This document shows, one piece after another, positions 46,015 through 52,144 of a stretch of 64,000 nt of DNA. The DNA lies in contig NZ_CP012850.1 in assembly GCF_000802205.1 (NCBI RefSeq), positions 2,940,587 through 3,004,586 of the forward strand. Reading direction: 5' to 3'. Positions within the stretch are counted from its first letter, which is position 1. Each line of letters starts with the position of its first letter. The translations under genes were made by a program, and so were the position numbers. Under the pieces are notes generated by a model. That model did not search any database. It was not told where the DNA came from and was given only the letters and a program-made list of their open reading frames with translations. The DNA is from Candidatus Nitrosocosmicus oleophilus. GTDB lineage: Archaea > Thermoproteota > Nitrososphaeria > Nitrososphaerales > Nitrososphaeraceae.

Positions 46015-46188
46015 ATGAATAAAATTGTTAAAGAAATAGCATCTATGATAGAAAATGGTATTAATGAAAATAAATTCGATATGAGCACATCTGGACTTAG
46101 TCAAGAACAGATGGATGTCATAAATAACTTTTCAAAATCATTAAACAGGAATGCTTGGTGGGGACCTTATCCACTCAAGGGGAAATAA
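46015..46188 (+). CDS. Small protein of 57 residues
   Basis: An ATG-started frame encoding 57 residues: a charged N-terminal half (MNKIVKEIASMIENGINENK) and a tail ending NAWWGPYPLKGK. The TATA-like TATATAGTATATG run just before it is close, implying a leaderless start. Too short for a family call. The aromatic Trp-Trp-Gly-Pro-Tyr-Pro tail is distinctive. It precedes a small zinc-finger protein in the same direction. Confidence 0.5.
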   Translation: MNKIVKEIASMIENGINENKFDMSTSGLSQEQMDVINNFSKSLNRNAWWGPYPLKGK

Positions 46189-46265: not shown

Positions 46266-46451
46266 ATGGAACTCGATAAAGACATTTGCAATTGCATACT
46301 GTGTGGCCAGAGGTGCTACAATAATTTGGTCAATAACGATACTAAGGTGAAGTTGTTCTTTGATAGGCCAGATTGTTTTAGACTATACAAAAGGTTCATT
46401 AGTATTTATGGAGCCGAATTCTCAGAGTTCTTAGGAATCTCGAAGTCATGA
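46266..46451 (+). CDS. Stand-alone mini zinc-finger protein related to a histidine-kinase sensor domain
   Basis: A 61-residue protein: CxxCG (C10-C13) with further Cys8, Cys17 and Cys37, then DCFRLYKRFISIYGAEFSEF. The same order (CYLCG, NCFMFYNRLSSVYGKNFSEL) starts the histidine kinase encoded at 48972-50441. The kinase uses two His before its third Cys, whereas here Asp/Arg/Pro stand there. It may be a competitor or partner of that sensor domain. Function inferred from similarity. Confidence 0.65.
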   Translation: MELDKDICNCILCGQRCYNNLVNNDTKVKLFFDRPDCFRLYKRFISIYGAEFSEFLGISKS

Positions 46452-46643: not shown

Positions 46644-48002
46644 TTGAAATCATTGGATATTTCATCTAAGAATCCATCTCATAGTCCTTTGATAATAGCT
46701 ATTATTATGATGACTGTATTATTTATAGATTTTTACTTAAGCACGATAGCTAATATAATTGTCCCATTTTCAGAATCATTCTATGGACTAAGTATTTTTT
46801 TGATAATGATCATTGCAAGTATAGGGGCAAGTCATTATTTTTTGAATAAGCTTTTTGTAATAGTGAAAGGTAATAGAAACGCATTCAGCAAATACAAAAA
46901 AATAATTCGAGTTATTCAATTGATTTTATATGCACTAGGAATTATCCTGTTGATAAATATTTTACTTCAGAACAAATATTATACAATAAATATAATTTCG
47001 ATTGTCACGATTAGTTACAGTTGTAGTATCGTAGCTAGTTTGTTGGTAAGTATAAAACTATTTAGTTGGTATAGGGAAAATAAGAACATTTTTTCGTTTT
47101 TGTTTGGTTTGACTATTTTATTCATTTTTATTAATAATTTGATATCATTACCCCTCTTTGATCTATTATTGTTTGAAAAACCTTATGAAATCAATCATAA
47201 TACTCCAGTTGAATTCAATTTTGAATGTACTGATGCTTCAACATATTGTGATATTAAACAAAACTTGCTCAATTATCAGTCATATACATTGATGACCTAC
47301 ATATTACTTTTCTGGATAAGTAGTATATTTCTCTTACACCATCATATAAAGAAGCTTGGAAAAGTAAAGTTCATAATTTTAGTGACTTTACCTATAGTAA
47401 TATTTTATTTCCAATTTATATATCAATATAATGAGCTTTATAGCCTAAATGATGAATTAAAATTTGATGAAAATGTAATTTATTCGATTCAAGTTTTTAT
47501 TCTTGTATTATGCTATGCAGGTGTAGGAATATTTTTTGGGTTGGGATTAAGATCGGTTGCAAATTTAATGAAATTTTCTCCAAATATTGAAAATTATCTA
47601 AAAATGGCATCGTATGGAATAATGCTTTTTATACTAGCAGCAAACTCAACTATTGTTGCTATTGGAATACCGCCGTATGGTATCCCGAGCATGATTTTTC
47701 TTCCCTTTGCATCTATATTAATTTATGTTGGTATCTATTATTCAGTTATTGCTATTTCAAATGATGTTACTGTTAGAAAGTATATCAAGAATTCAACATT
47801 GAATGAGCTAAAAATATTAGGGAAATTCGCTGAATCCCAAATGATAGACAACATGAAAGATAAAGTATTAAAAATGAGTAAACAATATTCCGACCAATTG
47901 CATAAACAAAGCAACACAGATACTACAGAAACGGAAGAGGACTTGAAAAATTATCTAGAGGATGCAATCAAGTTATTTAATACAAAGAATTCTAAGGAAT
48001 AA
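46644..48002 (+). CDS. Polytopic membrane protein, unknown
   Basis: 452 residues from a TTG start preceded by AAGGAG. About ten to eleven membrane helices run from residue 15 to 385, with an extracytoplasmic loop near 185-210 holding two Cys (FECTDASTYCDIK). A charged cytoplasmic tail of about 65 residues ends in a coiled-coil-like stretch (TETEEDLKNYLEDAIKLF). No transporter motif recognised. Its convergence on the ParA-like gene (gap 6 bases) and nearness to the sensor kinase suggest a sensory or secretion role. Confidence 0.6.
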   Translation: MKSLDISSKNPSHSPLIIAIIMMTVLFIDFYLSTIANIIVPFSESFYGLSIFLIMIIASIGASHYFLNKLFVIVKGNRNAFSKYKKIIRVIQLILYALGIILLINILLQNKYYTINIISIVTISYSCSIVASLLVSIKLFSWYRENKNIFSFLFGLTILFIFINNLISLPLFDLLLFEKPYEINHNTPVEFNFECTDASTYCDIKQNLLNYQSYTLMTYILLFWISSIFLLHHHIKKLGKVKFIILVTLPIVIFYFQFIYQYNELYSLNDELKFDENVIYSIQVFILVLCYAGVGIFFGLGLRSVANLMKFSPNIENYLKMASYGIMLFILAANSTIVAIGIPPYGIPSMIFLPFASILIYVGIYYSVIAISNDVTVRKYIKNSTLNELKILGKFAESQMIDNMKDKVLKMSKQYSDQLHKQSNTDTTETEEDLKNYLEDAIKLFNTKNSKE

Positions 48003-48008
48003 AAGTTA

Positions 48009-48860
48009 TTAAGCCAGTTTTTCCACTGATTCAACTAAATCATATACTTTTTTAGTAAATGGGTGATTTTGAAATTCATGAGCAGTTAAATATTCTCTTT
48101 CTTTAAATTGGATGTCACAATAGCAAGGTATCTCAGCCAGGGTATCAATATGGAAGGATTCAATGTGTAAGTTGTTCAAGGCATCTTGAATTTTTTCTTT
48201 AAAAAGAGACTCAGTTAAATCAAATTTGCTATAACTACTATCTTTATTGAATGGAACGCAATAACCAGACACACGGTTTAACAGCAGTTTACAAATCGAT
48301 CCATGCTCAATAAGAGAACCATATATTTCATTTATCATTTTTAGTGTTCCTTTCAAATCCAAATCGCCCATCTTCAAGGTCAATAGCACAATATCAGAAA
48401 TTACTATTGAGTTAATAGACCAATACCTAATGCCTGGGCTAGTATCCATTATTATGAAGTCTGCATCATTATCTACTAAAAGTGATTCTCGTAATGAAAT
48501 GAAATTTCTAAACTGCTTTAGTTGTTGCTCCCGATCATTTACCAGACTACCCTCTAATTGATATATGTCCTCTTTTCCGCCTCTTGAGAATCCCACCGAT
48601 AGTTTTCCCCTGAACTTATGATCAATAAAGGAACTAGAGTCAATCATAATATCATTCAAATTAGTATTGTTTTTTAAATAATCGTTTATCCAATATTTAG
48701 GTTCTATATTAAAATATGTATAAAGACTGGGAGCATAGAAATCTAGATCTAGGAGATAGACTTTGTAGCCCTTAGAGGCCAGTACAAACGAAAAATTGGC
48801 GGCTAGCGTCGTTTTCCCAGTACCTCCTTTATAAGAATGGAAAGAGATGCATTTGCCCAA
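48009..48860 (-). CDS. ParA/MinD-family ATPase
   Basis: A 283-residue deviant-Walker ATPase. The P-loop YKGGTGKTTLAANF is at residues 10-23 with the signature Lys near its start, then LLDLDFYAPSLYTYF (Walker A' ), IIMDTSPGIRYWS (Walker B) and a late LLNRVSGY base-contact loop. Such proteins form ATP-dependent dimers that position plasmids, chemoreceptors or membrane complexes. No parB is nearby. It ends 6 bases from the convergent membrane-protein gene and lies 111 bases downstream of the histidine kinase on the same strand. Confidence 0.85.
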   Translation of the reverse strand: MGKCISFHSYKGGTGKTTLAANFSFVLASKGYKVYLLDLDFYAPSLYTYFNIEPKYWINDYLKNNTNLNDIMIDSSSFIDHKFRGKLSVGFSRGGKEDIYQLEGSLVNDREQQLKQFRNFISLRESLLVDNDADFIIMDTSPGIRYWSINSIVISDIVLLTLKMGDLDLKGTLKMINEIYGSLIEHGSICKLLLNRVSGYCVPFNKDSSYSKFDLTESLFKEKIQDALNNLHIESFHIDTLAEIPCYCDIQFKEREYLTAHEFQNHPFTKKVYDLVESVEKLA

Positions 48861-48971: not shown

Positions 48972-50441
48972 TCATTCCGTCGGTAATTCAAAGCTAAATG
49001 TACTACCTGCTCCGATATCATTATTTCTTCCTTCAATCCGTCCTTGGTGTTTCTCTATTATTAATTTTGATATGTAAAGACCCAAACCAGTTCCGAGTTT
49101 GTCGGTTGTAAAGAATTTGGTAAATAATTTGGGGAATTCATTTTCATTAATACCACATCCAGTATCGCTAATTTTGACTTTCAAATTTTGTGGCAATTTT
49201 TCTATAGATATGTCAATTCGTCCTTCCTCGGTGAACTTTATTGAATTACTTATTAGATTATCTAGTACTTCAGTTATTCTTATTTTGTCGGCTTGAATCA
49301 CCAACGGTTTGAATGAGTAAGTCAGATCAAGTTTTATATTTTTGTTATTTACCTGTAAGGCATAATCACTTACTAAGTCTTCAATGGTTTTCACAATATC
49401 GAATGGTTCGATGTTAAGGTTAAAAATTCTATTTTCCATCCTTGCATAATCAAGAATATTATTAGTCATGATATCTAATTTTCGAGCATTTCTTGAGATG
49501 ATTTTCAATAATTCATTTTTTTGTTCAGAACTTAGTCTCGTATTGTTTTGCATCATGTCTGAAAATCCTAGAATCGGTTGGATGGGATTTTTTAATTCAT
49601 GAGCAAGGATTCTTACAAAATTATGATTGGAGATATTGTTCCTATTTAGTTCCAAGGACAAATTTTTTACCTTATTTTCCAATATTGACTGCTTCCAAAG
49701 GCTTTCAAAAACGATTGTGTTGTACCAAATCAATGAATCTTTTGTAGAAATCACATTAAAATACGTAAATTCTTGTGGGTTGTTATCATTTCTTTTCATT
49801 TCAGAAAAAATAGATGTGACTTTATCTCTAACAACTATTAAATATTGGATGCTATTTTCAGGTATATAGTTTAATTCTACATACCCGTTGTCCTTAACGT
49901 CGGATTTTTCGAAAAAGGACAACACTTTTTTGTTTTTTGGGGCTAATAATTTAATTTTGGGTTTTGGTAAATCTATGTCATTGTAATTATATGAAGAAAA
50001 TAACAAATCAAATGTATTGTTAAATCTAGAAAAAATTTCACTACTTGAAAAAACGATCTGCAACTCTTCCTTCGTCTCAGAAATCTCTTTCAGAAGCATT
50101 CCTTCAAAAACAGCGAAATCAGAGATGATCTCAGAACTGCTAAATTTAGTGTTCTTGATTTCAAAAAGTGATAATTCAAGGATATCACCAGAATAACTTT
50201 CCCATTTGATCTTGTCCAAACCTAATTCTGAAAAATTTTTACCATAGACAGAAGAAAGCCTATTGTAAAACATGAAGCAATTTTTATGATGAAATCTCTC
50301 GCCTCCCTGGTCTGTCGGTTCAACCTGCAAATCACCGGTAAATTTAATTGATTTACCACAAAGGTAACATTTTATCTCATCCTTAAATTCATCCACCTGT
50401 GAATTTGAATTTGTGATGATTGTTATATAGGTAGTTAGCAA
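48972..50441 (-). CDS. Cytosolic histidine kinase with N-terminal zinc-finger domain
   Basis: 489 residues. The N-terminus has CYLCG (C25, C28), His51-His52 and Cys55, a likely zinc site. A sensor region of about 140 residues (100-240) follows, then a coiled stretch. The HisKA box HELKNP has phospho-acceptor His281. The HATPase domain has an N box (DNLISNSIKF, 394-403), G1 (DTGCGI, 426-431) and G2 (GTGLGL, 450-455). No membrane helices, so it is a soluble sensor. A receiver protein at 51770 is a candidate partner. It shares an 78-base intergenic gap with the divergent ATP-grasp gene. Confidence 0.9.
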   Translation of the reverse strand: MLTTYITIITNSNSQVDEFKDEIKCYLCGKSIKFTGDLQVEPTDQGGERFHHKNCFMFYNRLSSVYGKNFSELGLDKIKWESYSGDILELSLFEIKNTKFSSSEIISDFAVFEGMLLKEISETKEELQIVFSSSEIFSRFNNTFDLLFSSYNYNDIDLPKPKIKLLAPKNKKVLSFFEKSDVKDNGYVELNYIPENSIQYLIVVRDKVTSIFSEMKRNDNNPQEFTYFNVISTKDSLIWYNTIVFESLWKQSILENKVKNLSLELNRNNISNHNFVRILAHELKNPIQPILGFSDMMQNNTRLSSEQKNELLKIISRNARKLDIMTNNILDYARMENRIFNLNIEPFDIVKTIEDLVSDYALQVNNKNIKLDLTYSFKPLVIQADKIRITEVLDNLISNSIKFTEEGRIDISIEKLPQNLKVKISDTGCGINENEFPKLFTKFFTTDKLGTGLGLYISKLIIEKHQGRIEGRNNDIGAGSTFSFELPTE

Positions 50442-50519
50442 GATAAATAAATAAACTTATCTTGATTTTGCTTCTTTCTTTAAAAGTATACTAAAAATTA
50501 TAAAACAAGTGTATTAAGA

Positions 50520-51635
50520 TTGAATGTGTTTAAGAGACCCTTTGTGTTTAATTTTTTAGAAAAACTGAATTATGAAAGAATTTTATTGAATAATACCAAC
50601 CCCTTAGAGTTACTAGATCAACTAAATATACCAAAAGAAAGAAATACATCAATTAGTCCTAAAATTCTAATAGTTACAAAGAAAATAGATATTGAAGCAG
50701 ATCTTCTTGGAATACAATTCTTAAAACATGGGATAGAATACTTAAAACTAACAGAGGAAGACATACCGCTAAACTTTGGCTGTGAGTTTAGAATAGGTAA
50801 AAAGAATAAATTTAGAGTTGTAATAAAAGGAAGAAAGACAAATCTCCAGAATATTAAGATTGTTTTATTGAGGCATTTTGATCCAAAATTTTTGAATTAT
50901 TTTTCCGGAATTAGACAAACATACTTCGTGCAACAATGGTATCAGACCTTTTTATGCCTTCAACAGATTTTAAAATGTGTATGGATAAATGATCCTCAAA
51001 AGACTTTTGACGCTGAAAATAGATTGAATCAGTTACTTACTGCGCAACGGATTGGCTTTAACATACCAGAAACATCAATTACAAATCACCCAGATGTCGG
51101 TAGGAGATTCTTTGATGAAAATTTCGGAACTACGCTAGTTAAAGTTCTTCATCATCACGAAATTATTCACAAATGCATGTCATACAGATTCTTGGCCACT
51201 AAGATAGAGAATAGCCATTTATCAAAATTTGACGAATTATCATATTCGCCTGTAATTTTTCAGAAGAGGATTGAAATCGATTCAGAGATTCGAGTAACCA
51301 TCATAGGTGACAATATTTTTTCTTGCGATCTTTCTACTAGTCATGGCAAAAAATACTTTGACCTGCACAGGATCAAAGAGAAAGATTTGAAGTATAAGGA
51401 GATCAATTTAGAGAAAAAAATAGAAAAACTATGCCTAAAGCTCAATAAAGAACTGAAGTTACTGGTATCAAGTATTGACTTCATCGTAGACAAAAAGGGG
51501 GAGATAGTTTTTCTTGAAATCAATCCAGTTGGGGATTGGAATTGGATTGAAAAACATACTAATTTACCGATAACAAAATCAATGTTTGACTTTGTGAACA
51601 GTCTATTAAAAAAAAATAGATTACATGATTCATAA
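50520..51635 (+). CDS. MvdC/MvdD-like ATP-grasp peptide ligase with leader-like N-terminal extension
   Basis: 371 residues. From about residue 48 it follows MvdC/MvdD enzymes, which join side chains in graspetides (microviridins): ILIVTKKIDIEADL, then VWINDPQKTFDAENRLNQLL, TAQRIGFNIPETSITNHP, SPVIFQKRIEIDSEIRVTII and VSSIDFIVDKKGEIVFLEIN. Metal ligands Asp320, Glu333 and Asn335 are present. Family members normally begin at the first of these motifs. Here 47 residues precede it, containing RPFVFNFLEKL (6-16), close to the PFFARFLE motif of microviridin leaders. No precursor gene is next to it. Divergent from a histidine kinase. The extension as built-in leader is inference. Confidence 0.75.
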   Translation: MNVFKRPFVFNFLEKLNYERILLNNTNPLELLDQLNIPKERNTSISPKILIVTKKIDIEADLLGIQFLKHGIEYLKLTEEDIPLNFGCEFRIGKKNKFRVVIKGRKTNLQNIKIVLLRHFDPKFLNYFSGIRQTYFVQQWYQTFLCLQQILKCVWINDPQKTFDAENRLNQLLTAQRIGFNIPETSITNHPDVGRRFFDENFGTTLVKVLHHHEIIHKCMSYRFLATKIENSHLSKFDELSYSPVIFQKRIEIDSEIRVTIIGDNIFSCDLSTSHGKKYFDLHRIKEKDLKYKEINLEKKIEKLCLKLNKELKLLVSSIDFIVDKKGEIVFLEINPVGDWNWIEKHTNLPITKSMFDFVNSLLKKNRLHDS

Positions 51636-51769: not shown

Positions 51770-52144
51770 ATGGGAAATAATATCATAGTAATCGATGATG
51801 ATGTAGGAACAGCATTATTCTTTAAAATTTGTTTAGAAGATGAGGGGTACCAAGTTAATATTTACAATGATCCGAACTCCCTTTTAGAAGAATTTGAACC
51901 TGGAATTTATGATCTCCTTATAACCGATATAAGAATGCCCAGAATAAATGGTTTTGAATTAGCTAGTAGGGTTAGAATAATGGATAGTAAAATTAAGATC
52001 TGCCTAGCTACTGCATTTGAGGAATATTATCAGTCAATTATAAAGTCGTATTCAGATTTAAGTTTTAACTGCATAATCAGAAAACCAATTAATAAAGATA
52101 ATTTTTTGGAGATCGTTGAAAGCAGGTTGAATGAATCAAAGTAG
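51770..52144 (+). CDS. Single-domain response regulator (receiver)
   Basis: 124 residues, one receiver domain: acidic VIDDD pocket at residues 7-11, phospho-acceptor Asp53 in LITDIRMPRING, the Thr position in LATAF and Lys in IRKPI near residue 106. No output domain, so it acts by protein contact. It lies 134 bases after the ATP-grasp gene in the same direction and near the histidine kinase, its probable partner. An ATATTTTAG TATA region precedes it. Confidence 0.93.
   Translation: MGNNIIVIDDDVGTALFFKICLEDEGYQVNIYNDPNSLLEEFEPGIYDLLITDIRMPRINGFELASRVRIMDSKIKICLATAFEEYYQSIIKSYSDLSFNCIIRKPINKDNFLEIVESRLNESK

Follow-up and report, generated by a model that had tools for sequence, protein, structure and literature searches.

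Graspetide enzymes, which crosslink small peptides into rings, have as their defining control the dependence on a leader that is normally read on the substrate, and the locus studied here raises the question of whether an archaeal ligase of this kind carries a leader within its own chain. The window, a stretch of 64,000 nucleotides from the genome of the soil archaeon Candidatus Nitrosocosmicus oleophilus (a single 3.43-Mb contig), contains a gene whose product had been read from its letters as an MvdC/MvdD-like ATP-grasp ligase behind a 47-residue N-terminal extension. The original prediction held that this may be a natural, permanently activated enzyme that modifies a leaderless peptide or protein in trans.

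The ligase gene and its family

The frame from 50520 to 51635 (+ strand) is an open, intact ORF, and the closest named relative of the gene comes from a Candidatus Nitrosocosmicus MAG. The start first assumed, TTG at 50520, was displaced: the codon equivalent to 50526 is the start in the genus, being GTG in nine of ten members and ATG in one, and several orthologues have a stop immediately 5' of it, so that translation most likely begins two codons downstream, at the conserved GTG, and gives a protein of 369 aa. In this GTG-started protein RPFVFNFLEKL spans residues 4-14 and PFVFNFLE residues 5-12; everywhere else, residues are counted with TTG 50520 as residue 1 (371-residue numbering). The following features were delineated, each on the + strand:

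50526..51635 (+): ATP-grasp ligase, putatively leader-fused, 369 aa with probable GTG start; rests on start conservation and on profile, PDB and fold matches
50538..50561 (+): leader-like motif PFVFNFLE, ORF residues 7-14, the counterpart of P-F-L-x-x-F in graspetide precursor leaders
50562..50660 (+): conserved extension linker, (N)T-N/I-N/D-P-x-x-L-x-x-x-L-N, with a predicted helix at residues 28-35
51141..51164 (+): KVLHHHEI segment, residues 208-215, signature of the leader-fused clade
51360..51368 (+): D-L-H, residues 281-283 (His283 against the Arg of D-W-R/D-Y-R)
51510..51542 (+): FLEINPVGDWN, residues 331-341, intact Mg/ATP-binding end of the ATP-grasp fold
Leader-like stretch as a free peptide: MFKRPFVFNFLEKLNYER

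The MvdC/MvdD layout proposed for residues 48-371 held up, with profile, PDB sequence and fold searches in agreement. The best NCBIfam profile over residues of about 48-358 was TIGR04187 (GRASP_SAV_5884, or TgmB-type ribosomal peptide maturase; 2.6e-51), and MvdC (1e-45) and MvdD (4.8e-34) matched over the ligase domain, all at 118-175 bits, which misses the curated cut-offs of 350-475 bits by far (175 against 350 for TIGR04187). Judged by these profiles, the enzyme is a relative of the graspetide ligases and not MvdC, MvdD or TgmB as such; the locus also differs from TgmB-type systems in having neither a tgmA precursor nor a tgmC methyltransferase. Searching PDB sequences returned AMdnB, MdnB, MdnC and CdnC far ahead of RimK (0.01), and Foldseek on an AlphaFold model of the ligase (mean pLDDT 76.9, pTM 0.79) returned CdnC 7mgv (8.9e-27), AMdnB (7.5e-26) and MdnC 5ig9 (8.0e-25), with RimK behind them at 1e-16.

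Graspetide synthetase sequence and fold are present across the full ligase length, and the fold and ATP-grasp motifs are shared with MdnC/MvdD and MdnB/MvdC (5ig9, 5ig8), AMdnB (7m4s), CdnC (7mgv) and PsnB (7drm). R118, K208, R258, D281 and FLEINP, conserved across distant relatives, are intact; Lys208, Arg258 and FLEINP, the residues expected from the fold to bind ATP/Mg, are conserved in an alignment of 15 relatives. What sets the archaeal ligase apart from microviridin-type enzymes is the position of the putative leader within the ligase chain, the exchange of the residues equivalent to MdnC Glu191/Asp192/Asn195, D-L-H in place of D-W-R, and the new KVLHHHEI segment.

It appears improbable that the protein is instead a RimK-like glutamate/amino-acid ligase, or some other non-graspetide ATP-grasp enzyme with an unrelated tail. 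RimK was the sole Pfam call above its cut-off, and the clade-specific His283 and HH segment point to an altered active site, but RimK was the best match in none of the profile, PDB sequence and fold searches, graspetide ligases scored well above it throughout (rimK_fam reached 1.7e-15 in NCBIfam), and the tail carries a graspetide leader motif. Membership of another ATP-grasp family had been named as an outcome that would speak against the original prediction, and the Foldseek order places the graspetide ligases first.

The leader-like N-terminus

Each of the 10 Nitrosocosmicus orthologues retains the extension and its motif in the reading frame of the ligase; absence of the motif from close homologues had been set beforehand as a refuting test, which the prediction passes. 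P7, F10, N11, F12, P28, L31 and N36 are invariant in these orthologues, and mean pairwise identity is 70% over residues 7-14, 59% over the ligase domain and 49% over the remaining extension. The likeness to microviridin leaders, P-F-x-x-x-F-L-E against PFFARFLE, was evaluated with a scoring matrix derived from 12 leaders whose precursors are real or likely. PFVFNFLE reached 13.8 bits, ranking first among the 53 window ORFs of at least 100 aa (8.0 bits for the runner-up N-terminus) and above every one of the 994 small ORFs in ten loci, with 1 of 2000 shuffles in a shuffle test of its score; this matrix test is partly circular, since several of the leaders were chosen through the motif itself. 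Profile-profile comparison of leaders and extensions brought the motif into register, pairing MSRQPFLAQFSTPR with FKRPFVFNFLEKL (P = 2.8e-4, probability 41%), and PFVFNF conforms to Phhx(1,2)h, the general graspetide leader motif of a published survey (PMC8939145). The proposed resemblance was thereby borne out, and on this sequence evidence the leader-like N-terminus is more than a chance likeness.

Pfam and NCBIfam gave no usable match to the extension alone, and a PDB match to the isolated extension was discarded as a chance match. A Pseudomonas plasmid ligase that aligned from residue 4 was likewise rejected as a spurious fused relative, because its ligase begins near residue 47 and its precursor lies in a separate gene.

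Among unfused relatives of the ligase, the P-F-L-x-x-F motif sits in a separate precursor. In two archaea from this phylum, the ligase is immediately preceded by a small gene that combines the motif with a Thr/Lys...Asp/Glu end: the L041 precursor (MAIKKELRHEPFLWIFREIP...KTQTKTCVQKERDDTD) reads EPFLWIF, and the L042 precursor (...MTNQEPFLLRFKTE...) reads EPFLLRF. Bacterial and phage-borne relatives likewise have a separate motif-bearing precursor upstream of the ligase; further leaders of this kind are MSRQPFLAQF, TPFLVNF, DPFLLRF and, in Nostoc, LPFFARFLEE, and a T/K...DD-type core ends most of the separate precursors. Because the same ligase is accompanied in relatives by a separate precursor bearing this motif, the extension appears equivalent to real leaders, in a homology-like manner. 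The window and nine orthologous loci (994 small ORFs) yielded no separate leader-bearing precursor that is conserved, and no conserved candidate for a nearby precursor joining a leader to a Thr/Ser/Lys-Glu/Asp core.

The two archaeal graspetide-like loci (L041:3686-4897 in genome G128; L042:4122-5426 in genome G135) also have a small membrane protein directly 3' of the ligase. Their existence qualifies the claim that such an enzyme would be unusual for archaea: ordinary graspetide-like loci, with separate precursors, occur elsewhere in the phylum.

Two AlphaFold runs left residues 1-25 and 1-23 below pLDDT 50, and both drew a helix at about residues 10-23 at low confidence, with only two alignment rows over the extension. 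In MdnC, Glu191, Asp192 and Asn195 hold Arg17 of the leader (PMC7823629); these residues align with Ser, His and Lys in the archaeal ligase, and the position of the leader Arg is Asn in the extension. As the MdnC anchoring residues are not kept, leader binding would differ in detail. Given the Arg-to-Asn exchange, the change could be compensatory and the contact re-tuned; a loss of leader binding would fit the altered residues too.

A lost contact bears on the alternative that the extension is a relic or a structural or dimerisation helix, derived from a leader or merely like one, with no activating role. Besides the missing MdnC contact residues, the helix is unplaced in the AlphaFold models, and P28, L31 and N36 in the remaining extension are conserved too, as expected of a structural element. 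Nevertheless, I consider this alternative unlikely: the leader motif is the most conserved part, above the ligase itself, it lies at the extreme N-terminus, where real precursors (MSRQPFLAQF, for example) also have it, and the loci supply no leader from elsewhere. More improbable still is a precursor-ligase fusion that modifies itself, in which the extension would hold both leader and core and the enzyme would crosslink its own N-terminus. The extension has about the length of a small precursor and contains a conserved Thr before acidic residues (NNTNPLELLD), but this Thr/acid pattern is lost in more divergent fused members, and the neighbours show no apparent protease site or exporter.

A probable leader-fused clade and its proposed mechanism

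In a tree of 38 ligases built with the extension trimmed off, the 12 fused ligases formed one group with a support of 100/99: ten from Nitrosocosmicus, one from a further Nitrososphaeraceae genome (L028), and one from a Ligilactobacillus salivarius plasmid (L059), whose placement is less sure than these values because of its long branch. The fused ligases have E59, F120, Q139, H212, H283 and D339 in common. H212 lies within a K-x-x-H-H segment in 12/12, and position 283 is His in all 12 as against Arg in 17/17 separate-precursor ligases. The best reading of these data is that the leader-fused ligases are one old clade. The ligase was found in 10 of 15 genus genomes, and a search of 400 genomes of the class returned, outside the fused members, only three distant unfused relatives; in scans of viral contigs, neither the orthologue profile nor the Lactobacillus protein picked up a relative.

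The L. salivarius ligase begins with MFLEKPFLLDLTSTEEN... (motif MFLEKPFLLDL) and adjoins a SagB-type dehydrogenase. On this plasmid (pLS_3, L059:1678-4319), a 41-aa Lys/Glu-rich leaderless peptide, the fused ligase, the dehydrogenase and a 92-aa protein lie in a row, which makes this a candidate cluster for a leaderless RiPP. SagB-associated ATP-grasps of branch 6 have precursors without the Phhx(1,2)h motif (PMC8939145); the L. salivarius member, also beside SagB, may belong to this branch, whereas SagB is absent from the archaeal module.

Overall, the archaeal enzyme is probably a naturally occurring fusion of leader and ligase that modifies a leaderless target in trans. The ancestral ligase would have worked with a separate precursor, whose P-F-L-x-x-F leader helix switched the enzyme on, and in the fused clade this leader would have moved into the ligase chain. 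There it may bind the leader site of the same chain or, in a dimer, the site on the partner subunit, and the bound leader would hold the enzyme in its active form in cis. ATP would phosphorylate a Glu/Asp side chain, which would then be joined to a nucleophile of the leaderless substrate in trans.

Engineered leader-ligase fusions that modify leaderless cores are cited in PMC13039773, and a leader remains functional after transfer to the opposite end of its precursor (PMC13003496). As in the engineered leader-MdnC/MvdC-type fusions, the leader would be covalently joined to the ligase; the archaeal fusion differs from them in being natural and genus-conserved, in the letters of its leader, and in its active-site changes. 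No natural leader-ligase fusion was found in the openly readable papers searched. A built-in leader appears to be otherwise known only from laboratory engineering, and to be shared with one Lactobacillus plasmid enzyme.

The surrounding module and candidate substrates

The ligase is surrounded by a conserved set of genes:

46015..46188 (+): 57-aa small protein ending in (F/Y)PLK; candidate for a partner or a substrate
46266..46451 (+): 61-aa Cys/His protein corresponding to the histidine kinase N-terminal domain as a separate copy
46644..48002 (+): 452-aa membrane protein with C-tail TDTTETEED
48009..48860 (-): MinD/ParA-like ATPase
48972..50441 (-): histidine kinase with N-terminal Cys/His domain, divergent from the ligase
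51770..52144 (+): response-regulator receiver protein, directly 3' of the ligase

The five genus genomes without the ligase also have no close orthologue of the membrane protein, the MinD-like ATPase or the 57-mer; in one ligase-bearing genome with a short contig (G017), the 57-mer was not found. The other Nitrososphaeraceae genome has a membrane-protein homologue directly upstream of its ligase, which in this MAG is interrupted by a frame break and has integrase-like ORFs after it (L028:1159-2287, genome G068). Given its strict co-occurrence with the module, the ligase belongs to a signalling-like set of genes, as opposed to a typical precursor-ligase-exporter cluster. A AAATAAACTTATCT box at window positions 50440-50465 is conserved in the divergent intergenic region between kinase and ligase of most orthologues and may represent a common promoter or regulator site.

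A check for mass losses of 18 Da had been proposed for the 57- and 61-residue products. Both are conserved neighbours, but neither resembles a graspetide core. The 57-mer (invariant K3, E7, a Gln and the C-terminal PLK; no usable match in Pfam or NCBIfam) was ruled out as a graspetide precursor for want of a conserved T/S...D/E core, and the 61-mer consists of a Zn-finger-like domain that the histidine kinase also has. As side observations, the 61-aa protein could be a competitor or regulator of the neighbouring kinase; a 57-mer paralogue (G000:C1:915969-916106; L040:2946-3107) has no PLK C-terminus and lies away from any ligase; and 61-aa paralogues similar to it occur in four other genomes.

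The 452-aa membrane protein belongs to a family that has no Pfam match and many Nitrososphaeraceae paralogues, with as many as 24 matches in a genome, and the module members have an extracytosolic-looking loop, TPVxFNFEC...YC, in common. A cytosolic tail motif, [ST][ED]TxE[ST][DE]ED, was present in 8/9 module membrane proteins and missing from every full-length paralogue tail examined. Acidic helix caps like TDTTETEED are common, and the Ser/Thr-Glu/Asp cluster of this tail as the ligase target is a lead only. Most likely, the substrate would be a protein or small protein of the histidine-kinase/MinD/membrane-protein module. Taken further, it is possible, if doubtful, that a naturally fused clade spanning archaea and bacteria, with a changed, His-rich active site, crosslinks leaderless proteins of signalling modules rather than an exported peptide; graspetide chemistry would then serve as protein modification.

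If the conserved fusion is real, it would show the evolutionary removal of leader control and provide a ligase that needs no separate leader, ready for use. Such a fusion could also account for ATP-grasp loci in which a leader-bearing precursor is not recognisable, in that the leader may sit in the ligase. For the organism, an ammonia-oxidising archaeon, peptide-crosslinking chemistry would then stand next to a two-component system.
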